Shown here piece after piece: positions 2,211 to 32,957 of a stretch of DNA of 35,598 nt. A program made the translations under genes and the position numbers. The notes below the pieces were generated by a model, which was not told the DNA's origin, searched no databases, and worked only from the letters and a program-made list of their open reading frames with translations. Every line of letters starts with the position of its first letter. Positions within the stretch are counted from its first letter, which is position 1. Source of the stretch: Chloroflexota bacterium (GTDB lineage: Bacteria; Chloroflexota; Dehalococcoidia; Lucifugimonadales; UBA1127); the NCBI GenBank assembly GCA_026713825.1, contig JAPONS010000012.1:1-35598 (forward strand), read 5' to 3'.

Positions 2211-3113
2211 CTACCAGGCTTCGGTGGGCAGGTCTACGTGGTAGTTGGCCATGAGCTTATCGAGCGCTGCCGCTGTGGCGGGGTCCGGGGTGATGAGGGG
2301 CAGGCGCGGCTCACCGACGTTGAAACCAGCCTTATTAACAGCGTACTTCACCGGGATTGGGTTTGCCAGTACAAAGAGGCCCTGGAATATGGGCAGCAGG
2401 CGTCGGTGCTCGGCGGCGGCGCGCTCGAGGTCACCCTCGAGGGTGAGGCCCATCATAGCCTTGATCTGGGCGCCGATGAGGTGGGAGGCGACGCTGATGA
2501 TGCCGTAGCCGCCCATGGCCATTATAGGGTAGGTCTGGTCGTCGTTGCCGGACCAGACGAGGAAGCCGGGCGCGGCGTCGCGGATGATGGCGGCCGCCTG
2601 GCCGAGGTCGCCGCCGGCCTCCTTGATGCCGATGATGTTGGGGACATCGCTTAGGCGGATGACGGTGTCCGCCGACATGTTGACGGCGGTGCGGCCGGTC
2701 ACGTTGTAGAGGATGACGGGCAGGTCCGTGCTGTCCGCGATGGCCTTGAAGTGGCGGTACAGGCCCTCCTGCGGGGGCTTGTTGTAGTAGGGGACCACGG
2801 ACAGGACAGCGTCGGCGCCGATCCTCGTGGCGGTCTCGGTGTAGCGGATGGCCTCGGCGGTGTTGTTGCTGCCTGTGCCGGCGACGACATCGCCCCTCCC
2901 GTCAAGGGCCTCCTTGATCTCGGCGAAGAGGCGCTCCTCTTCGTCATGGGTCAGGGTGGGAGACTCGCCGGTGGTGCCGGCAACGACGACGCCGTCGCTG
3001 CCGGACGCGACAAGGGCTAGGGCGAGCTTCCGGGCCTGCGCGTAGTCCACGCGGCCTTCGGAGTCGAAGGGGGTCACCATGGCGGTCAAGAGCCTGCCGA
3101 TCTGCGCTGCCAT
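2211..3113 (-). CDS. dapA: 4-hydroxy-tetrahydrodipicolinate synthase
   Basis: 300 aa, normal length for the family. Condenses pyruvate with aspartate 4-semialdehyde in the cytoplasm, the first committed step to diaminopimelate and lysine. It is a TIM barrel with GTTGESPTL (46-54; the Thr pair of the proton relay), Tyr136 in LYNVTGRT, and Schiff-base Lys164 in GIKEAGGD; Arg141 would bind the substrate carboxylate. A strong GGGAGG ribosome-binding site overlaps the end of asd. Only three bases separate the asd stop from this start, so translation is probably coupled. It directly follows the gene that makes its substrate. Related aldolases of the NanA family share the fold, but the dapB-asd context makes DapA the best call. 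Confidence 0.96.
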   Translation of the reverse strand: MAAQIGRLLTAMVTPFDSEGRVDYAQARKLALALVASGSDGVVVAGTTGESPTLTHDEEERLFAEIKEALDGRGDVVAGTGSNNTAEAIRYTETATRIGADAVLSVVPYYNKPPQEGLYRHFKAIADSTDLPVILYNVTGRTAVNMSADTVIRLSDVPNIIGIKEAGGDLGQAAAIIRDAAPGFLVWSGNDDQTYPIMAMGGYGIISVASHLIGAQIKAMMGLTLEGDLERAAAEHRRLLPIFQGLFVLANPIPVKYAVNKAGFNVGEPRLPLITPDPATAAALDKLMANYHVDLPTEAW

Positions 3114-3116
3114 TGC

Positions 3117-4151
3117 CTACCTCCCGTTGCCGTTGCGGCCGGCGAGCCTCCGTTCCAGCAGTTCTTCCGCTATCTGCACGGCGTTGAGGGCGGCGCCCTT
3201 GCGGAGGTTGTCGCCCACAGTCCAGAGGGAGAGGCCGTTGGCCAGGGCGCGATCCTGCCGTATGCGCCCCACGAAGACCTCATCCTTGCCCGCCGCAAAG
3301 CCGGCGAGGGGGTAGCTCTTCGCCGCAACGTCGTCGATGACGCGGACGCCGGGGAACTCGGAGAGGACGTCGCGCGCCTCCTCGGGTGACATAACGTTCT
3401 CGAACTCGACGTGCACGGCCTCGGAGTGGGAGATGGGCACGGGCACGCGGACGCAGGTGGCGGAGACGGGAAGCTCCGGAAGGTGCATGATCTTCCGGGT
3501 CTCGTTCTCCATCTTGGTCTCCTCCGTGGTGTAGCCGTCGTCCGTGAAGTCCTCGACGTGCGGGAGGACGTTGAATGCGAGGGGGTAGGGGAACGTCGAG
3601 GCGGCAACGTCCTGGTCGTCGAGCATGGCGTGGGTCTGCCGATACAGCTCCGCGACGCCCTTTGCGCCCGCGCCGGAGGCCGACTGGTACGTGTCGACGA
3701 TGACGCGCGTGATGGGATTGGCCCGGTGCAGGGGCGCGAGGGCCATCAGCATGACGATGGTGGAGCAGTTTGGGCTGGAGACGATACCGTTGTGCCCTTG
3801 GAGGTCGTCGCCGTTAATCTCGGGGATGACGAGGGGCACGGTGGCGTCCATGCGCCATGCTGAGGACTTGTCGACGACGACTGCGCCGCGACGGGCGGCC
3901 TCCGGGGCGAGGGCTTTGCTGGTGCCACCGCCCGCGGCGAAGAAGACAACGTCTGCGCCCTCGAAGGCGTCTGGGGTGGCCTCCTCGACGACGAGCTCAT
4001 CGCCCATGAAGGGCAGCTTGGTGCCGGCGGAGCGGCTGCTGGCGAGCAGGCGGGCGCGCTCGACGGGGAAGCCGCGCTCCTCGAGGATGCTGAGGACCAC
4101 GCGTCCAACGGCGCCGGTGGCGCCAACGACGGCGATGTTTGCTCCAGCCAT
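3117..4151 (-). CDS. asd: Aspartate-semialdehyde dehydrogenase
   Basis: 344 aa. Reduces aspartyl-4-phosphate with NADPH to aspartate 4-semialdehyde, the branch metabolite for lysine/diaminopimelate, threonine and methionine. The N-terminal Rossmann fold has GATGAVGRVVL (10-20). The catalytic cysteine is Cys129 in SSPNCST. The substrate-binding region includes QSASGAGAKG (156-165) and the catalytic histidine His242 in PISHSEAVHVEF. The start ATG has AAGGA upstream at a slightly long spacing. It lies between dapB and dapA in a co-directional run, with 55 bp to dapB and 3 bp to dapA. Confidence 0.96.
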   Translation of the reverse strand: MAGANIAVVGATGAVGRVVLSILEERGFPVERARLLASSRSAGTKLPFMGDELVVEEATPDAFEGADVVFFAAGGGTSKALAPEAARRGAVVVDKSSAWRMDATVPLVIPEINGDDLQGHNGIVSSPNCSTIVMLMALAPLHRANPITRVIVDTYQSASGAGAKGVAELYRQTHAMLDDQDVAASTFPYPLAFNVLPHVEDFTDDGYTTEETKMENETRKIMHLPELPVSATCVRVPVPISHSEAVHVEFENVMSPEEARDVLSEFPGVRVIDDVAAKSYPLAGFAAGKDEVFVGRIRQDRALANGLSLWTVGDNLRKGAALNAVQIAEELLERRLAGRNGNGR

Positions 4152-5014: not shown

Positions 5015-7243
<2,229 letters not shown>

Positions 7244-7250
7244 CAGGGAA

Positions 7251-7275
7251 CCTCCTCATTCGTTGCGAGAGGAGG
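7251..7275 (-). promoter_or_regulatory. Hairpin sequestering the pnp ribosome-binding site
   Basis: On the minus strand CCTCCTC and GAGGAGG form a perfect 7-bp stem around an 11-nt loop. The GAGGAGG arm is the pnp Shine-Dalgarno sequence. In enterobacteria the rpsO-pnp intergenic region forms an RNase III-cut hairpin used for PNPase autoregulation. Here the stem masks the ribosome-binding site directly, so translational control of pnp is a reasonable inference. Confidence 0.6.
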
Positions 7276-7299
7276 AAGGGGTCGTCCGCGCAGAAGTGG

Positions 7300-7563
7300 T
7301 TAGCGGCGGAGACCGAGGTGGGTCAAGAGAGCACGGTATCTGGGGGGAGCCGTCCTGCCCAAGTAGTTGAGCAACCGCCGGCGCTGCCCGACAAGCTTCA
7401 ACAGGCCACGACGCGTGTGGTGGTCCTTCTTATGGACCTGGAGGTGGCGGTTCAACTCGTTGATGCGTCCGGTGAGGACAGCAATCTGCACGTCGGTTGA
7501 GCCGGTATCCGTCGCGTGGGTCTTGAAGTTGCTGATGATGGCTTGCTTTTGCTCGATGTCCAC
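7300..7563 (-). CDS. rpsO: 30S ribosomal protein S15
   Basis: 87 aa from a GTG start, the right length for S15. The frame stays open 42 codons further upstream, but that extension is not part of S15. The GTG is preceded by GAGG at suitable spacing and gives the family N-terminus ([21 protein letters not shown]). Family blocks seen: [48 protein letters not shown] and the C-terminal [12 protein letters not shown]. Binds 16S rRNA in the central domain and helps assemble the platform. First gene of the minus-strand unit, 56 bp before pnp. Confidence 0.96.
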
Positions 7564-7603
7564 GTTGCCTCGGGACCTATTCCTCTCTCGTTCTTTCGAA
7601 GGC

Positions 7604-7632
7604 AGTATAGCATGGCGATTCAGGGGTGGGAA
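7604..7632 (-). promoter_or_regulatory. Promoter of the rpsO-pnp-dap unit
   Basis: Minus strand: -10 TATACT (7604-7609) with an upstream TGC extension, a 17-bp spacer, and a weak -35 TTCCCA (7627-7632). Start of transcription would be near 7597, giving a leader of about 34 nt before the GTG. Confidence 0.55.
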
Positions 7633-7666
7633 GGGGTGCGTCTCAGCTACTCTCCACCCCGCCATG

Positions 7667-7676
7667 CTGCTATCAT
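7667..7676 (+). promoter_or_regulatory. Extended -10 promoter of folD
   Basis: TGCTATCAT on the plus strand: -10 TATCAT at 7671-7676 preceded by TGC. No good -35 is visible 17 bp upstream. Oppositely oriented to the rpsO promoter in the 149-bp divergent region. Confidence 0.4.
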
Positions 7677-7712
7677 CGTAGGGGCACACGACACCATCCT
7701 GAAGGAGCGTTC

Positions 7713-8600
7713 ATGGCAGCTGAGATCATCAACGGGAACGAGATTGCGAAGCAGGTGCGCGGCGAGGTCGCAGAGGGCGTGGCGGCGCTGAAGGCGTCGA
7801 CGGGCGTGGAGCCGGGGCTGGCGGTGGTGCTGGTGGGGGACGACGCCGCGTCGGCCGTGTACGTGCGCAACAAGGGCCGCGCCGCCGAGGAGGCGGGCAT
7901 TTACTCGGAAACCTACCGGCTGCCGCAGGAAACGGAGCAGGAGGAGATTGTGGAACTGGTGCGGCAATTGAATGCCGACAACCGGTTCCACGGCATTCTT
8001 GTGCAGCTTCCCTTGCCACCACAGGTGAACGAGGAGGCGGTGCTGTACACCATCGACCCGGCCAAGGACGTGGACGGGCTGCACCCGTTCAACCTCGGCC
8101 GACTGGCGGCGGGGAACCCGACGTTCGTGCCGTGCACGCCGGCGGGGGTGCAGGAGATGCTGGTGCGCACGGGCCACGATCCAGCGGGCAAGCACGTTGT
8201 GGTGTGCGGGCGGAGCAACATCGTGGGCAAGCCGGTGTCGCTGCTGCTGCTGCAGAAGGCGGCGGGGGCGAACGCGACGGTGACGGTGTGCCACACGGGT
8301 ACGCGAGACCTGGGCGCAATCACACGGCAGGGCGACATCCTCATCGCGGCGGCGGGACGGCCGGAGTTCATCACGGCGGACATGGTGAAGGAGGGCGTGG
8401 TGGTGGTGGACGTGGGGATCAACCGCGTCGACGACGCTACGCGGGAGCGGGGCTACCGGTTGACGGGGGACGTGGCCTTTGGGCCGGTTTCCGAGGTGGC
8501 GTCGGCGATCACGCCGGTGCCTGGGGGCGTCGGGCCGATGACGATTGCGATGCTGTTGAAGAATACGCTGCAGTCGGCGCGGCAGGCGGCGGGGGTGTAG
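7713..8600 (+). CDS. folD: Methylenetetrahydrofolate dehydrogenase/cyclohydrolase
   Basis: 295 aa from the ATG preceded by GAAGGAG; the open frame extends upstream, but this start matches the family N-terminus. Bifunctional cytoplasmic enzyme interconverting 5,10-methylene-, 5,10-methenyl- and 10-formyl-tetrahydrofolate. Catalytic Tyr50 and Lys54 lie in SAVYVRNK. Substrate-binding VQLPLP (97-102) and DVDGLHPFN (119-127) follow. The Rossmann loop is GRSNIVGKPVSLLL (166-179). The family C-terminal signature TPVPGGVGPMTIAML is at 267-281. Divergent from rpsO. Confidence 0.96.
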   Translation: MAAEIINGNEIAKQVRGEVAEGVAALKASTGVEPGLAVVLVGDDAASAVYVRNKGRAAEEAGIYSETYRLPQETEQEEIVELVRQLNADNRFHGILVQLPLPPQVNEEAVLYTIDPAKDVDGLHPFNLGRLAAGNPTFVPCTPAGVQEMLVRTGHDPAGKHVVVCGRSNIVGKPVSLLLLQKAAGANATVTVCHTGTRDLGAITRQGDILIAAAGRPEFITADMVKEGVVVVDVGINRVDDATRERGYRLTGDVAFGPVSEVASAITPVPGGVGPMTIAMLLKNTLQSARQAAGV

Positions 8601-8615
8601 GGGGCTGCGGGGGCG

Positions 8616-8716
8616 CCCTTCGACAGGAATGGGGCGGACGGAGCGGCGGGAGCGGCGGCTTCCGCAAGGGCCGTTGGGCGCGAGAGGTCTGGATACCGGC
8701 ATGCGCCGGTATGGGG
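8616..8716. repeat. Two dispersed repeats after folD
   Basis: CCCTTCGACAGGAATGGGGC (a degenerate relative of 10051) is followed by the palindromic unit at 8690-8716, in which ACCGGC-ATGC-GCCGGT forms the stem. The second unit is the empty form of the repeat that carries the 24-bp module at 35548. Confidence 0.6.
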
Positions 8717-8717
8717 G

Positions 8718-9977
8718 CTAGCACGCGTACGAGATGTGTCCCGGGTACTGTGAGTCCTCGGCATTGCGGTACCAGCAGTCGTAGGAGTTGTAGGCTTCCA
8801 GATAACGCTGATACGCCTGATTCAACGTGTTGTAGGCGGCATCCGAATATACCGTACATATGCCGATATTTCGATGGCAACCGTGGGCCTGCCGCAGGTC
8901 TTGATAGGCGTCTCTGGCGGTGACGTAGGTAGACTTGGCGGCGTTCACGTTGTTTCGGAGGGTGGCGTTAGCCGGTCTGGTGTTCTTGTGGACTTCGATG
9001 ATGTAGCCGTTTACGGCGGTGTGGGGGACCCAGCAGCCGTCGGGGCCGCTGTTGGCGTCGCCCTGCGGCCAATAGAAGTGGACGCCGCCGCTCACCTTGA
9101 TGTCCATCACCCGATGCGCGGTGTTGCTGTTACTTGGCTCATCACTCCAGCAAGCGCGGCTCTGAAAGCTGATGGTTGCGCCGATGACGATGTTCTCCGG
9201 CTGAAAGTCGTGAAGCCACGTGGCTGTGTCCAGGCAGGTCAACTTCGGCTCCATGCTACCAGTGCAAAGAAGCCCGAGGACCCTCTCCGATTGCTGAGAG
9301 AGAATGAGGGGCCTCCGCCGCTCCTCCAGCTGGGCGATCTCTGTGCGGAGGTTGCCCGCCTGCGTCTCCAGCGTCTCGACGGTGCCAGCGGCTTTGGTCA
9401 AGGCGGTGTGTTCCGCATCCAAGCCGGCGTACCGGGTGTTGAGGGTCTGATGGGACACCTGCAACTCCTCATAGGACCCCTGTAATTCCTGGTGGGAGCC
9501 TTGCAGTGTCTGGTGGGACGCTTGCAGGTCCTGATGGACGACTTGCAACGCTTCATGCCGGGCCCCAAGTTGCCGGTTGGCGTCCGCTAGTTGCTCGTGG
9601 GCACTCTTCAAATGGTCGTACTCTTGCGTCAGTACGGTCTTCTCGTGCGCCAAGGTGCGGTTCTCCTCCGAGAGTTCATGCACTTCGATACGCAACCCGT
9701 CCCGTTCCGTTCCGACTTGAGCCAAACCCCTGGCGAGGGCGTCGCGCTCCGCAACCAGTGCGTTCCGCTGCTTGGCGAGAGTATCGAAGTCGGCAGCCAA
9801 GGCGTTGTGCGTCTCGATGCTGGCCACGAGGTCAGTATTGGACTGCACGAGGGCGCTCCGGGTTTCGCGCAGATCGACGTTGGCCTGGTCGAGTTCCCGG
9901 AACAGGTAGCCGGCGGTGAAGCCGAGGAACAGCAGCACGGCGAGGGCGGCGGCAGCAGGGATGGGGATGCGTCTCAT
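8718..9977 (-). CDS. Membrane-anchored coiled-coil protein with ER/archaeal-type signal peptidase domain
   Basis: 419 aa. CAGGAG lies 8 nt before the ATG. Architecture: a transmembrane anchor (8-27); a long Gln/His/Glu/Leu coiled coil (about 28-225) with seven exact heptads starting at Leu144, 151, 158, 165, 172, 179 and 186 (LQASHQT, LQGSHQE, LQGSYEE, LQVSHQT); a catalytic-looking domain (about 230-330); and a Tyr/Cys-rich helical tail. The catalytic domain follows S26B signal peptidase order: GSMEP with nucleophile Ser241, VIGATISFQ (the VGDIV strand), AHRV with His288, QGDAN at 305-309, Asp313, then VPHTAVNGYIIEV. A Ser-His-Asp set rather than Ser-Lys makes it ER/archaeal-like. Eight cysteines suggest extracytoplasmic disulfides. 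Substrate unknown; it may process or only bind proteins. Confidence 0.75.
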   Translation of the reverse strand: MRRIPIPAAAALAVLLFLGFTAGYLFRELDQANVDLRETRSALVQSNTDLVASIETHNALAADFDTLAKQRNALVAERDALARGLAQVGTERDGLRIEVHELSEENRTLAHEKTVLTQEYDHLKSAHEQLADANRQLGARHEALQVVHQDLQASHQTLQGSHQELQGSYEELQVSHQTLNTRYAGLDAEHTALTKAAGTVETLETQAGNLRTEIAQLEERRRPLILSQQSERVLGLLCTGSMEPKLTCLDTATWLHDFQPENIVIGATISFQSRACWSDEPSNSNTAHRVMDIKVSGGVHFYWPQGDANSGPDGCWVPHTAVNGYIIEVHKNTRPANATLRNNVNAAKSTYVTARDAYQDLRQAHGCHRNIGICTVYSDAAYNTLNQAYQRYLEAYNSYDCWYRNAEDSQYPGHISYAC

Positions 9978-27420: not shown

Positions 27421-28767
27421 ATGGCGGAGCAGCATACAAGCGAGCGACCACAGTCGTGGCCGGCCAGGCTGCCGTTCTTCTATGGCTGGGTGATTGTGGT
27501 CATCTCCTTCGTGATGGGATTCATCACGGCCGGGGCTTTCTGGGCGACCAGCGTCATCGCGGTCCCCATGCGCGACGACCTGGGCTGGAGCCTCTCGTCC
27601 ATCTACGTTGGCCTGACGATTCGCATGCTGGTGGGGGCGGGAAGCATGTTCGTGCTGGGGAGGTTCGCCGACCTCAAGCACGGCGCGAGGACGCTCGCCG
27701 TCGTCAGCGGGGTGCTGGCGTCGGTTTCTCTGGTGGCGGTGGCCTACGTCAATTCGCACTGGCAGTTCCTTGCCCTTTACGGTGTGTTGGGTGGCTTCTC
27801 TGTGGCCGGAGCGGGATTCCTCATCCTGTCCGCTGTGGTGCCGCGCTGGTTCTTCAGGAAGCGCGGCCGGGCCATGGCATTCGCGACGATGGGGTCAGGC
27901 GCGGCGGCGTTCGTGTTGCCGCCGCTGTTTGCCCTTGTCCTCGAAGCGGTGGGCTGGCGCGGAACGTGGGCGTTCCTGGGCGTGCTGACCGGGGTTTTCA
28001 CCATCCTTCCCTCGTTTCTGATATGGCGGCAGCCGGAGGACGTCGGACTGGAGCCGGACGGGGGCATCGAGCCCATCCCGGCGAACCGGGCCTCTGCGGT
28101 GCAGCACGTCCGCAACTACACCCTGCGGGAGGCTGTGCGGACGCCTGTCATGTGGATACTGGTCTTTGCGCTGGCGTCTGCGAGCCTGTCCCCCAACGGA
28201 GTGCCCTCCACGCTGGTACCCATGTTCATCGAGAAGGGGCACTCGACGCAGGCGGCGGCGCTGGGCTTCAGCATCTACGGCCTCTTCAGCATGCTGGCGC
28301 GCTTCTTCTGGGGTTTTCTGGCGGAGCGCTACCACATCCGCACGGTGATAATCTTCATCGGCCTGTTCTCCGCGGTGGCGATGCCGATGCTCATCTTCAT
28401 GGAGGGCAACGTCGCGCTGCTCTACGCAGCGCTGGCGGGCTTCGGCATCGGCGGACTCATCGGCACGAATTCGCTTGTGTGGCCGGCGTACTTTGGGCGG
28501 AGCCACCTTGGCGCGATCGTGGGCGTCAGCCGGCCCTTTGAGACAGCGGTCATGGCTTCCGGGCCGCTGCTGATGGCGCAGAGCTTCGACCGGACCGGCG
28601 GATACACGCTCGGCCTGTGGCTCATGGGAGTCTCGTGGTTGATGTGCGTGGGCGCGATGCTGCTGGCGCGGACTCCGCGGCAGGAAGCGCCGTCGACGGA
28701 TGCGGTGAGGCCGCAGGAGGCGGGGGAGGGGGCGCCGCGCGACTCCAAGGGCTACGCAAAGTCATAG
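27421..28767 (+). CDS. MFS transporter, second tandem copy
   Basis: 448 aa from the ATG preceded by GGGGGAGAG. Collinear with the preceding carrier through all twelve segments: SVIAVPMRDDLGWSLSSIYVG, GRFADLKHGAR, WRQPEDVGLEPDG and ANRASAVQHVRNYTL. The copies differ mainly at the termini and in segments 4-5 and 9, so they may have split substrates. The gene end overlaps the end of the convergent antitoxin gene by 16 bp. Confidence 0.88.
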   Translation: MAEQHTSERPQSWPARLPFFYGWVIVVISFVMGFITAGAFWATSVIAVPMRDDLGWSLSSIYVGLTIRMLVGAGSMFVLGRFADLKHGARTLAVVSGVLASVSLVAVAYVNSHWQFLALYGVLGGFSVAGAGFLILSAVVPRWFFRKRGRAMAFATMGSGAAAFVLPPLFALVLEAVGWRGTWAFLGVLTGVFTILPSFLIWRQPEDVGLEPDGGIEPIPANRASAVQHVRNYTLREAVRTPVMWILVFALASASLSPNGVPSTLVPMFIEKGHSTQAAALGFSIYGLFSMLARFFWGFLAERYHIRTVIIFIGLFSAVAMPMLIFMEGNVALLYAALAGFGIGGLIGTNSLVWPAYFGRSHLGAIVGVSRPFETAVMASGPLLMAQSFDRTGGYTLGLWLMGVSWLMCVGAMLLARTPRQEAPSTDAVRPQEAGEGAPRDSKGYAKS

Positions 28768-28982
28768 GCGCGCATGGGGACCGACCTGGGAGCCTCTGCA
28801 TCGCTGTGGACAAGAAGGCGCACTTTCTCCGTCGTTTCCCTGCTGAACGTGCGCTCACCGCACCGGCGGCACACCACGGCGGGAACACCGTTCACAAGCG
28901 CGTACTCGCCGTCCACCTTGAAGACGGAATCGACCGTCTCATCCCGGCATTCGCCTGAGCCGCAAACGGTGCAGTGAAACAT
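28752..28982 (-). CDS. YgiT-type zinc-finger antitoxin (MqsA-like)
   Basis: 76 aa from the ATG that has GAGGAG 6 nt upstream; an ATG two codons earlier overlaps the toxin stop as ATGA and is equally allowed. Two zinc-binding pairs, CTVCGSGEC near the start and CRRCGERTF about 35 residues later, define the YgiT/MqsA N-terminal zinc finger. The usual HTH repressor half of MqsA is missing, as in many short members. Second gene of a toxin-antitoxin pair, after a DUF4258 toxin-like gene. Probably neutralises that protein by direct contact. Confidence 0.82.
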   Translation of the reverse strand: MFHCTVCGSGECRDETVDSVFKVDGEYALVNGVPAVVCRRCGERTFSRETTEKVRLLVHSDAEAPRSVPMRAYDFA

Positions 28983-28984
28983 GG

Positions 28985-29293
28985 TCATCTCCTCTGGGTG
29001 TGCCCCCACCATTCATCCGAATCTGGCTCATAGAGCGTGACGATCTTGACGAGTGGCGTATCCGCCAAGGATACCTGGAGATGAAGCGGACGCCCCATCA
29101 AGGTAAATCCAAGTATCAACATGCTCGGGCCGTACTTGTCATCCAAGTATTCCTCGACGATGACCGCCTCTGCTCCCGTTTCCTTAATCTCCTCTTCGCT
29201 GACGTTCCGTTCAACTGCGCGGATGAACGCATGCTCCGAAAACTCAAATGCCCCGGCGGCTAGTTGTGCCCGGACGTCATTCAGAGTCTTCAC
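28985..29293 (-). CDS. DUF4258 protein, probable toxin of a type II TA pair
   Basis: 102 aa from a GTG start without a clear ribosome-binding site. DUF4258 pattern: FSEHAFIRAVERNVSEEEI (residues about 18-36) with the conserved His and Arg, then a beta-rich C-terminal half (PLHLQVSLADTPLVKIVTLYEPD). The family is related to MqsR/RelE-like toxins and is often encoded just before a YgiT-type zinc-finger protein, as here with a stop/start overlap. mRNA-interferase activity is inferred from the family; no catalytic residues can be fixed with certainty. Confidence 0.78.
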   Translation of the reverse strand: MKTLNDVRAQLAAGAFEFSEHAFIRAVERNVSEEEIKETGAEAVIVEEYLDDKYGPSMLILGFTLMGRPLHLQVSLADTPLVKIVTLYEPDSDEWWGHTQRR

Positions 29294-30351: not shown

Positions 30352-30367
30352 TTGATACTTTATCTCA
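30352..30367 (+). promoter_or_regulatory. Fur/Zur-like box, distal copy
   Basis: TTGATACTTTATCTCA. Contains GATA-CTT-TATC symmetry and matches 10 of 14 defined positions of the Fur-type TGATAATNATTATCA consensus. Exact copy at 30581. Confidence 0.45.
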
Positions 30368-30580: not shown

Positions 30581-30596
30581 TTGATACTTTATCTCA
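30581..30596 (+). promoter_or_regulatory. Fur/Zur-like box, proximal copy
   Basis: Same 16 bp as 30352-30367, 93 bp before the zinc-binding lipoprotein start and touching a possible -10 TAATAC (30599-30604). Similarity continues past the box ((G)TTAATA). Binding by a metal-sensing repressor is inferred from the downstream gene. Confidence 0.5.
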
Positions 30597-30689: not shown

Positions 30690-32957
30690 ATGTTAGCCAA
30701 CAGGAACATTTGGACATCATTATGGGGAAGGGCGCTCATGGCCACCGCGGCGTTGATGCTCGCGGTAGCGCTGATGGCTTGCCAGAGCGGAGACGACGAC
30801 GCCCCCGCAACGAACGCCGGAGGGGCGGCAACCTCCGCAGCGGCCTCGCCAACGGAAGAGACCACCATGGCGCAAAAGCTGAACGTCGTGGCCACATCGA
30901 ACATCGCCGCAGACTGGGCGCGCAACGTGGGCGGTGACCGGGTCGAGGTGAAGGGCCTGCTGCCCATCGCCCAAGACCCACATTCCTATCAGCCGGGGGC
31001 GCGAGACGTCGCGGACATCGCCGCGGCCGACCTGGTGCTGACCATCGGACTTAGTCTGGAGGACGAGTGGCTCCGCGATCTGGTCGAAAATGCCAGCGCG
31101 GATGTGTCTCGTGTCGTGGCGCTGGGCGATCATGTTTCACCCATCCTCTTTGAGGAGATCGGCGCACACGCCATGGAAGCGGAAGGGAGCGAGGGGCTGT
31201 TGGGCCGCCTGCTCATCGCAGACGGCAGCGAGCCGAGGCTCTCGATCCTGGACCTGGAGACCGGGGAGCTGGACCTGCACGCGCTTGAGGTCGCGGCGGC
31301 CTCGGCGACCCTGTACTCAAGCCCCAGCGGACGGTTCGTCTTTGCACTATCCCGTGGTCCCGAAGACAACGACGACCGAGTACAGATCTTCGACAGCGGC
31401 GTCTACCTGGAGGAGCACGGGGACCACTTCGACCTCGTCGTAGACCCCGTTTCCGAGCTGAGCCTTGGGACAACGGACCAGCGCCCGGTGCACGTGAGCG
31501 TCCACGCGGGCCAAACGGCCATCTACCACGACGGATCGGGTCGTGCTGCGCTCTTCGACGAGCACGAGCTTGAGGAGGAGCGGGATTCATACGAGCCGGT
31601 GTGGATCGACGCGGGGCTACAGCACGGGGCGGTCGTGCCACTGGGCGAAGAGTACGCGGTGGTGTCCTCCAACAACCCCGACTACCCTGCGACTGCAACC
31701 AGCAGCCTGCCCATCGGAGCTGAGGTGCGCACTCTGGACAACAGGGTGGTCTACGACGCCAGCAACAGGGCGTGTCCCGGACTCCACGGAGAGGCGGCGA
31801 ATCACCACGGCGTCATGTTCGGCTGCGTGGGTGGCGTGCTGTTCATCGAGGGACACGATGGGGACTTTGAGCACGTATTCGTCCCCAACGACTCCAGCAT
31901 GAACGAGGCCGCCCGCATCGGCACGGTCTGGTCGCATGAGGACATCGAGCTGTTCTTCGGCTCCGCGAGCTACCGAGACGAGGATGGCGCGAGGATCAAC
32001 GGCGGACTCTGGACCATCGACGCCGAAGGCGGGAGCATGAGCCAAGTCCTGCCGGCTACGGACGAGAAGCGGGTCCTGCGGGCGGCGTTCGACGGGCACG
32101 GCGAGAAGGCCTTCTTCCTGACATACGACGGGACGCTCAACGCCGTCGACACGGAGTCGGGCGAGGTAATGGAGACCATCGAATTGCTGGAGCCCTTTGA
32201 CGGGGACACCTCGCCCAACTTCACCACAGTAGGCGACACCCTGTTCCTGACCGACCGGGCCCACGGCCGCCTGATCGAGTTCAACCTGGACCACGGTGAA
32301 GTGGAGCGGGAGTGGACCGTGGGCGGCGAGCCGCGGAGCGTGGCCTTCGCCGGCATCGGCGGTGGCGAGGACCATGAGGAAGAGGGTCACGGCGAAGATG
32401 ACCACGACGACCACGGACACGCACACGGCATGTATGACCCTCACTTCTGGTTTGACCCTCCCCGGGTGAAGGCAGCCGTGTACACCATTGCGGATCGGCT
32501 TTCAGCCCTCGACCCGGAGGGAGCGGCAACGTACCGCGCGAACGCGGCGGCCTACGCGGCGGAGCTGGACGCGCTGCACGCTTGGACGGCGAGCACCGTG
32601 CAGGCGATCCCCACGGAGCGCCGCGTCCTCGTCACATCCCATGACACCCTGCGCTACTTCGCCGAACTGTACGGGTTCGAGGTTGTCGGGACGGTACTGC
32701 CGGGGCTTTCCCCGGACATCGAGCCCTCCGCACAACATCTGCACGGGCTGATGGAGACACTGGAAGAGCATCCCGTGCCGGCGGTATTCGGCGAAACGAC
32801 CGTCTCGGAGCGGATGGCGCAGTCCATCGCACAAGAGACCGGCTCCCGATTCCTGCAGCTGTACTCAGGCTCCCTGGGGGCCCCAGGCAGTGGCGCGGAC
32901 ACCTACATCGGCATGGTGCGAGCCAACGTGGGAATCATCGTGGGCGCTCTACGGTAG
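30690..32957 (+). CDS. Zinc ABC-transporter substrate-binding lipoprotein with inserted AztD-like beta-propeller
   Basis: 755 aa, more than twice the usual ZnuA/AztC length. Signal peptide with lipid-anchor Cys31 (LMAC). Residues 63-147 are the N-lobe (LNVVATSNIAADWARNVGGD) with zinc ligand His98 in DPHSY. Residues about 150-557 are a beta-propeller-like insert containing HGDHFD (243-248), IYHDGSG (278-284) and CPGLHGEAANHHG (362-374) followed by FGC, patterns of the AztD zinc metallochaperone. A His/Asp/Glu loop (559-582) follows, then the rest of the binding protein with His585 (DPHFW), His651 (TSHDT) and Asp737. All four zinc ligands survive. Likely captures Zn and passes it internally. 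No permease or ATPase gene adjoins. Start at 30738 is a possible alternative but shortens the signal peptide. Confidence 0.88.
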   Translation: MLANRNIWTSLWGRALMATAALMLAVALMACQSGDDDAPATNAGGAATSAAASPTEETTMAQKLNVVATSNIAADWARNVGGDRVEVKGLLPIAQDPHSYQPGARDVADIAAADLVLTIGLSLEDEWLRDLVENASADVSRVVALGDHVSPILFEEIGAHAMEAEGSEGLLGRLLIADGSEPRLSILDLETGELDLHALEVAAASATLYSSPSGRFVFALSRGPEDNDDRVQIFDSGVYLEEHGDHFDLVVDPVSELSLGTTDQRPVHVSVHAGQTAIYHDGSGRAALFDEHELEEERDSYEPVWIDAGLQHGAVVPLGEEYAVVSSNNPDYPATATSSLPIGAEVRTLDNRVVYDASNRACPGLHGEAANHHGVMFGCVGGVLFIEGHDGDFEHVFVPNDSSMNEAARIGTVWSHEDIELFFGSASYRDEDGARINGGLWTIDAEGGSMSQVLPATDEKRVLRAAFDGHGEKAFFLTYDGTLNAVDTESGEVMETIELLEPFDGDTSPNFTTVGDTLFLTDRAHGRLIEFNLDHGEVEREWTVGGEPRSVAFAGIGGGEDHEEEGHGEDDHDDHGHAHGMYDPHFWFDPPRVKAAVYTIADRLSALDPEGAATYRANAAAYAAELDALHAWTASTVQAIPTERRVLVTSHDTLRYFAELYGFEVVGTVLPGLSPDIEPSAQHLHGLMETLEEHPVPAVFGETTVSERMAQSIAQETGSRFLQLYSGSLGAPGSGADTYIGMVRANVGIIVGALR

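Follow-up and report, generated by a model that had tools for sequence, protein, structure and literature searches.

A zinc-binding lipoprotein of Chloroflexota with a nested AztD-type propeller, a candidate for intramolecular zinc relay

In the AztABCD system of Paracoccus denitrificans, the zinc substrate-binding protein (SBP) AztC and the metallochaperone AztD are two proteins. A gene at 30690-32957 (+ strand) of the 35,598-nucleotide stretch analyzed here (the window) raises the question of whether both are joined in one chain, and whether zinc might pass between them within it. The gene is a single unbroken open reading frame (ORF) of 755 amino acids in which the two lobes of an SBP enclose a propeller with a short linker on its N-terminal side and a His/Asp/Glu linker on the other. 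Donor-type and acceptor-type parts thus share one chain, as the initial annotation had proposed from the sequence, and its view of the protein as lipid-anchored agrees with a lipobox at Cys31; 48 of 50 fused relatives likewise have a lipobox-like pattern ahead of the N lobe. Its estimate of about 410 residues of propeller counted linker as well; the propeller proper spans about 390. The parts of the gene are as follows.

30690..30782, + strand: signal peptide, residues 1-31, with lipobox LMAC and lipidated Cys31 (read from the sequence)
30873..31154, + strand: SBP N lobe, residues 62-155, with zinc ligand His98 (first stretch of the PF01297 and NF040870 matches)
31155..31190, + strand: N-side linker, residues 156-167, His/Asp/Glu-rich in relatives (composition; low pLDDT)
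31191..32357, + strand: AztD-like beta-propeller, residues 168-556 (NF038015 match; model against 6ck1_B)
31416..31433, + strand: site-2 hairpin HGDHFD (243-248), with His243, His246 and Asp248 equivalent to His99, His102 and Asp104 of Paracoccus AztD (PdAztD) (alignment)
31491..31493, + strand: site-1 ligand His268, equivalent to PdAztD His124 (alignment)
31623..31625, + strand: site-1 ligand His312, equivalent to PdAztD His167 (alignment)
31773..31826, + strand: Cys362 to Cys379, equivalent to AztD Cys214-Cys231, around site-1 ligand His366, equivalent to PdAztD His218 (alignment)
32358..32435, + strand: C-side His/Asp/Glu linker, residues 557-582, at the position of the flexible zinc-loading loop of AztC
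32436..32954, + strand: SBP C lobe, residues 583-755, with zinc ligands His585, His651 and Asp737 (second stretch of PF01297; alignment to 5kzj)

The outer parts of the chain belong to the cluster A-I SBPs. A Pfam search matched PF01297 (ZnuA) in two separate stretches (E 1.4e-80; 271 bits against a gathering threshold of 29), the better being 564-751, and in phmmer searches the SBP flanks matched AztC, PsaA and relatives. The AztC equivalog model NF040870 scored 257.1 bits, under its cut-off of 350. The initial annotation had named His98, His585, His651 and Asp737 as zinc ligands. All four are present, and each of the three histidines is invariant in the 47 fused homologues compared. Asp occupies the fourth column in only 22 of the 47, since the C-terminal loop differs in one SBP lineage.

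The inserted part is matched nearly end to end by the AztD model NF038015 (residues 176-553, model positions 1-353 of 356, E 8.1e-45), yet despite this coverage its 153.1 bits fall short of the cut-off of 400, a score that none of the 250 genomes of the window's order reached. Since the scores lie under the NCBI cut-offs for both AztC and AztD, we describe the two parts, from sequence comparison, as divergent homologues of these proteins. The insert alone also retrieved AztD crystal chains in phmmer searches (6cmk, 2.1e-27; 6ck1, 5.4e-23), beyond what chance would give; model and sequence searches both connect residues 168-556 to AztD. In PdAztD, site 1 consists of His124, His167 and His218, site 2 of His99, His102 and Asp104 plus the C-terminal His408, and a disulfide joins Cys214 to Cys231 (PMC6689063). 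By alignment, the fused protein has the three-histidine site 1, the His/His/Asp of site 2 and the disulfide; all of these ligands and both cysteines occur in 47 of 47 fused proteins. The two motifs singled out earlier, HGDHFD and CPGLHGEA (362-369), are accordingly the site-2 hairpin and the disulfide/site-1 motif. The fourth site-2 ligand, His408, has no fixed equivalent among the fused proteins, because the C terminus of the propeller continues into a His-rich linker; a His or Asp from that linker would be needed in its place. AztD is a separate secreted protein with its own gene; here the propeller is nested in the SBP chain.

Structure prediction supports this architecture. AlphaFold2, run on an alignment of 47 natural sequences, returned a model of the window protein with a mean pLDDT of 83, mostly above 90 in the propeller and low in the linkers. 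Model residues 138-528 (protein residues 168-558) superimpose on 6ck1_B, chain 31-404, with Z 42.3 and an rmsd of 2.5 over 360 of 372 residues, and are thus predicted to adopt the eight-bladed fold of AztD. With the propeller left out, model residues 32-725 align with 5kzj, an AztC loop-deletion structure, at Z 33.6 (rmsd 1.9, 269 residues). The whole SBP aligns with AztC, MntC and YfeA at Z 30-34, as expected of a two-lobe fold. AlphaFold, Foldseek and structure alignments therefore agree on a closed AztD-like propeller beside an intact two-lobe SBP. A model of L101, a fused protein from another SBP lineage, agreed with this (AztD, Z 42.1; MntC and AztC, Z about 32), again with both linkers at low confidence. 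Because the pTM is low (0.57 for the window protein, 0.55 for L101) and the linkers are disordered, the models leave the orientation of the propeller relative to the SBP free.

The window contig comes from a 114-contig draft, and two genes joined through assembly or frameshift might yield such a frame. This explanation has next to no chance of being correct. The same gene, 93% identical, lies with syntenic flanks in G002, a congeneric single-contig genome (OX638292.1, an uncultured Dehalococcoidia chromosome), and such chromosomes exclude the assembly fusion that the initial annotation had named as a way to be wrong. The architecture also recurs. A scan of 84,980 named species genomes, built from a narrower alignment (A2) that may miss distant fused forms in other phyla, yielded 75 loci, of which 46 have the complete order N lobe, propeller, C lobe (N-D-C) and five are cut or split, the others being stand-alone AztD-like genes or unscored. 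Carriers include Dehalococcoidia (among them SAR202), Caldilineaceae and Acidimicrobiia, which are described as sponge- and sea-dwelling bacteria; the window fusion belongs to SAR202-type Dehalococcoidia. Many carriers come from metagenome-assembled genome (MAG) sets that we take to be sponge-associated.

Within the window's order, 52 of 250 genomes have an AztD match, mostly within long open frames. For 28 of the 52, loci were scanned for domains, which confirmed the N-D-C nesting and showed that relatives share the insertion point. Stand-alone AztD-like genes occur in Dehalococcoidia too, and two congeneric genomes have no AztD match yet retain a plain SBP operon with an SBP of 312-313 codons. 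Among Actinomycetes, 85 of 346 genomes have an AztD match; in all the loci read among these, the propeller frame lacks SBP lobes and usually adjoins the SBP gene. Some long Actinomycetes frames resembled the fusion by length and were rejected, since domain scans placed SBP and AztD in separate frames and traced the length to spurious extension. A chance ORF or degenerate insert is ruled out by the invariance of the ligands together with dN/dS, which is about 0.2 in lobes and propeller alike (window gene against L074) and indicates purifying selection on both.

What would such a nested chain do? In Paracoccus, only site 2 of AztD transfers zinc to AztC, and formation of the AztD-AztC complex is rate-limiting. 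An extension that combines a hairpin with the N- and C-terminal strands carries site 2, which in AztD crystals sits next to both termini of the propeller. In the docking model of the complex, the flexible loop of AztC passes into the pore of the propeller, leaving about 10 A between site 2 and the SBP site (PMC6689063). In the fused protein, by model alignment and sequence match, the insert enters through AztD's terminal strands into the AztC-type flexible loop, where the initial annotation had placed it. Because the propeller is inserted by its own termini into that loop, site 2 should start near the junction, and with this proximity a relay within the molecule becomes the most economical explanation. 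His/Asp/Glu linkers and propeller sites would collect zinc, site-2 zinc would pass within the chain to His98, His585, His651 and Asp737, and tethering would turn the slow, rate-limiting meeting of AztD and AztC into a local event. The loaded SBP would then feed an ABC-3 permease, encoded in the same operon in many relatives and on another contig for the window copy. We give a probability of roughly 60% to this reading, a lipid-anchored zinc SBP with a nested AztD-type metallochaperone and an intramolecular zinc relay. It builds on the homology of both parts, the intact ligands, the common insertion point, and the link by operon or shared box to an AztAB-type ABC importer.

The linkers themselves point to another possible role. 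Pooled over 47 fused sequences, the N-side linker (11-65 amino acids) is 71% and the C-side linker (14-92 amino acids) 70% His, Asp and Glu, and His577 and His579 of the window protein are each invariant (47 of 47). Propeller and linkers might thus act as an antenna or buffer that holds extra zinc and raises its local level, the SBP loading from released zinc with no ligand-to-ligand transfer. Propeller-free paralogues keep the same repeats, some propeller-less SBPs carry His/Asp/Glu or helical repeats at that place, and AdcA can import with no more than its SBP domain, the accessory regions being helpful only (PMC7858048). We nevertheless find this doubtful: the site-2 hairpin needed for direct transfer by AztD is invariant, and a plain buffer would tolerate its loss. 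The propeller is unlikely to be essential for uptake, because tandem and congeneric SBPs exist without it.

The components and the AztC/AztD pairing are already known. The fusion resembles AztC and AztD (5w56/5w57/5kzj, 6ck1) in its folds, SBP histidines, site-1 and site-2 ligands and disulfide, and an AztAB-like ATPase and permease are also encoded in the window genome; it differs in being one chain, with the propeller nested in the AztC flexible loop and scores under the NCBI cut-offs. Fusion of an SBP to a chaperone is likewise known in principle from AdcA with ZinT (PMC6689063, PMC7858048). Streptococcal AdcA (ZnuA-like plus ZinT) is also a lipoprotein with a His-rich loop in which an SBP is joined to a zinc accessory protein that is free-standing elsewhere. 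In AdcA, however, ZinT is fused end to end through an 11-residue linker (PMC7858048), whereas the window protein has a nested insertion of an unrelated propeller. It scores 94.9 bits against the AdcA model NF033605 (cut-off 700) and has no Pfam match to a ZinT domain at E up to 1. The anchored-repeat SBP TIGR03772, Zur-regulated in Corynebacterium diphtheriae (PMC6711530), also belongs to cluster A-I and to a zinc-regulated ABC system, and its two lobes are likewise separated by additional sequence (486 model positions, C lobe at 311-478). The window protein reaches only 181.9 bits with this model (cut-off 350.45), and its own insert is AztD-like. In the literature searched, which mostly left subscription journals and preprints outside, we found no description of an AztC/AztD fusion, its spread or its exchange between SBP lineages; as far as that search extends, the nested AztD-in-SBP architecture is new. 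What is known of how AztD passes zinc to AztC comes solely from mutants, docking and slow second-order kinetics. A natural donor-acceptor tether through the loop that the docking model places in the propeller pore offers a ready system to trap and view the geometry of transfer, and zinc capture and hand-over may occur within one molecule.

The genomic neighborhood bears on which permease is served. The window copy has no adjoining ABC genes and does not lie in an AztABCD-type operon. Besides the fusion, its genome encodes just one cluster A-I SBP, and it has only one ABC-3 permease; both genes lie on contig C30, in a series that runs fur, SBP, ATPase, permease. Since the window fusion lacks a permease of its own, it must use this single one on the other contig. 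The arrangement proposed recalls AdcAII, an orphan SBP that shares the AdcCB permease and, to our knowledge, has no propeller. The SBP of the C30 operon (413-codon frame) has helical, His-rich sequence in place of the propeller. With the sole ABC-3 permease adjoining another SBP, and a putative regulatory box common to both loci (below), the orphan fusion might mainly donate zinc in trans to the C30 operon SBP and use its own SBP fold for docking. We regard this as quite unlikely, given that the fusion's SBP ligands are intact and its lobes under apparent purifying selection, and that in many relatives the fusion itself is the SBP directly ahead of ATPase and permease, often behind a fur-family gene, in an AztABCD-type operon.

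Two exact copies of a 15-mer lie upstream of the window fusion.

30353..30367, + strand: distal putative Fur/Zur box, TGATACTTTATCTCA
30582..30596, + strand: proximal putative Fur/Zur box, same 15-mer, about 95 bp upstream of the ATG

None is expected from 100 dinucleotide shuffles of the window. The distal box recurs with 0-1 mismatch and nearly equal spacing in two congeneric genomes, and the proximal box is conserved in L073 and L074. From the window's upstream region alone no palindrome with arms of at least 7 was found; the box was recognized through comparison between loci. Allowing up to two mismatches, the genome has seven sites and none for a reversed control: two ahead of the fusion, two ahead of the C30 fur operon, two at a COG0523/CobW GTPase gene (L190:4504-5847, contig C74 of G000; boxes at about 4349 and 4465 of L190) and one elsewhere. 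The site at C61:52878 has two mismatches and no recognizable zinc gene adjoining. In other genomes of the genus, sites with at most one mismatch lie ahead of the fusion or the fur-SBP operon, and one lies ahead of a lipoprotein ORF. AztD genes elsewhere are also accompanied by Fur/Zur and CobW genes (PMC6689063). The box is likely a Zur operator, with Fur as the remaining alternative, and the fusion, the C30 operon and the COG0523 GTPase gene would then form a Zur regulon. Zinc starvation probably induces the fusion.

This zinc-type company of the box also bears on whether the propeller might instead bind, for example, ligands of the host or matrix on a symbiont's surface, its zinc sites being merely structural. 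The presumed sponge association of many carriers would fit such a role, as would the double function of some cluster A-I SBPs as adhesins (laminin-binding proteins are among the structure matches). It is nonetheless very improbable, as the conserved ligands are those of a zinc-transfer protein family and the box is common to zinc-type genes.

Three further observations concern these loci. The lipoprotein ORF L198:293-1405 (- strand; contig C6 of G001), downstream of a palindromic box TTGATACTTTATATCAA, looks by eye like a metal-chelate SBP of the PF01497 type. The Fur-family regulator of the C30 operon (L149:8404-8916, - strand) has a His-rich C-terminal tail, HLHGHGHAHTHDHDD. In the window, 28752-29293 (- strand) holds a DUF4258 and MqsA-like pair, toxin-antitoxin-like, between MFS genes and an amidohydrolase gene.

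How the propeller came to its place can be read from trees of its two parts. In the SBP-lobe tree, propeller-bearing and propeller-free SBPs are interspersed, with at least 10 changes of presence, and the propeller tree disagrees with it. The propellers of one SBP clade (13 rows) were rejected as a clade (AU p 0.002), and in the SBP tree a grouping of L116 with Acidimicrobiia-type SBPs, the propellers of which do group, was rejected (p 2.6e-32), p-values to be read loosely as the tested groups were picked after viewing trees from quick searches with some long branches. This disagreement between propeller and host-SBP trees indicates that the propeller moved between SBP lineages, each time at the same His/Asp/Glu loop.

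In two tandem SBP pairs the change can be seen directly. The two SBPs in L081 (Caldilineaceae; 2711-3973 and 6296-8761) are 90.6% identical outside the propeller, over 413 aligned positions, and only one has a propeller; a pair in L123, 75% identical, differs in the same way. In both pairs the propeller is embedded in His/Asp/Glu repeats that the propeller-free paralogue retains. Within a gene, the stretch of identical DNA common to both linkers is longer than in shuffled linkers (median 11.5 against 7.0 bases; up to 26), an identity that would make recombination possible. We lean toward the propeller being a portable zinc-loading module, gained and lost by several zinc-SBP lineages (Chloroflexota, Acidimicrobiia) at one His/Asp/Glu loop through linker recombination, each gain yielding a single-chain donor-acceptor zinc importer. 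The differing histories would make the SBP loop a place where a folded eight-bladed domain has landed repeatedly, and the L081 pair, with and without propeller, offers a built-in control for the propeller's contribution.

Several loci depart from the common form. The L014/L050 proteins (G035) are fused in N-D-C order with very divergent lobes and propeller, on long branches in both trees, and possibly represent an independent fusion. At L126:5137-8731 about 1 kb separates an N-lobe ORF from an ORF with propeller and C lobe; this split fusion is a copy that has decayed or been interrupted, or else reflects a sequencing problem. Contig C9:11259-13676 of G095 has two AztD matches in one 994-codon frame, possibly a two-propeller chain. 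Finally, the propeller-free SBPs of L017 (646-codon frame) and L001 (413-codon frame) have acidic helical repeats and His-rich spacers in the same loop.
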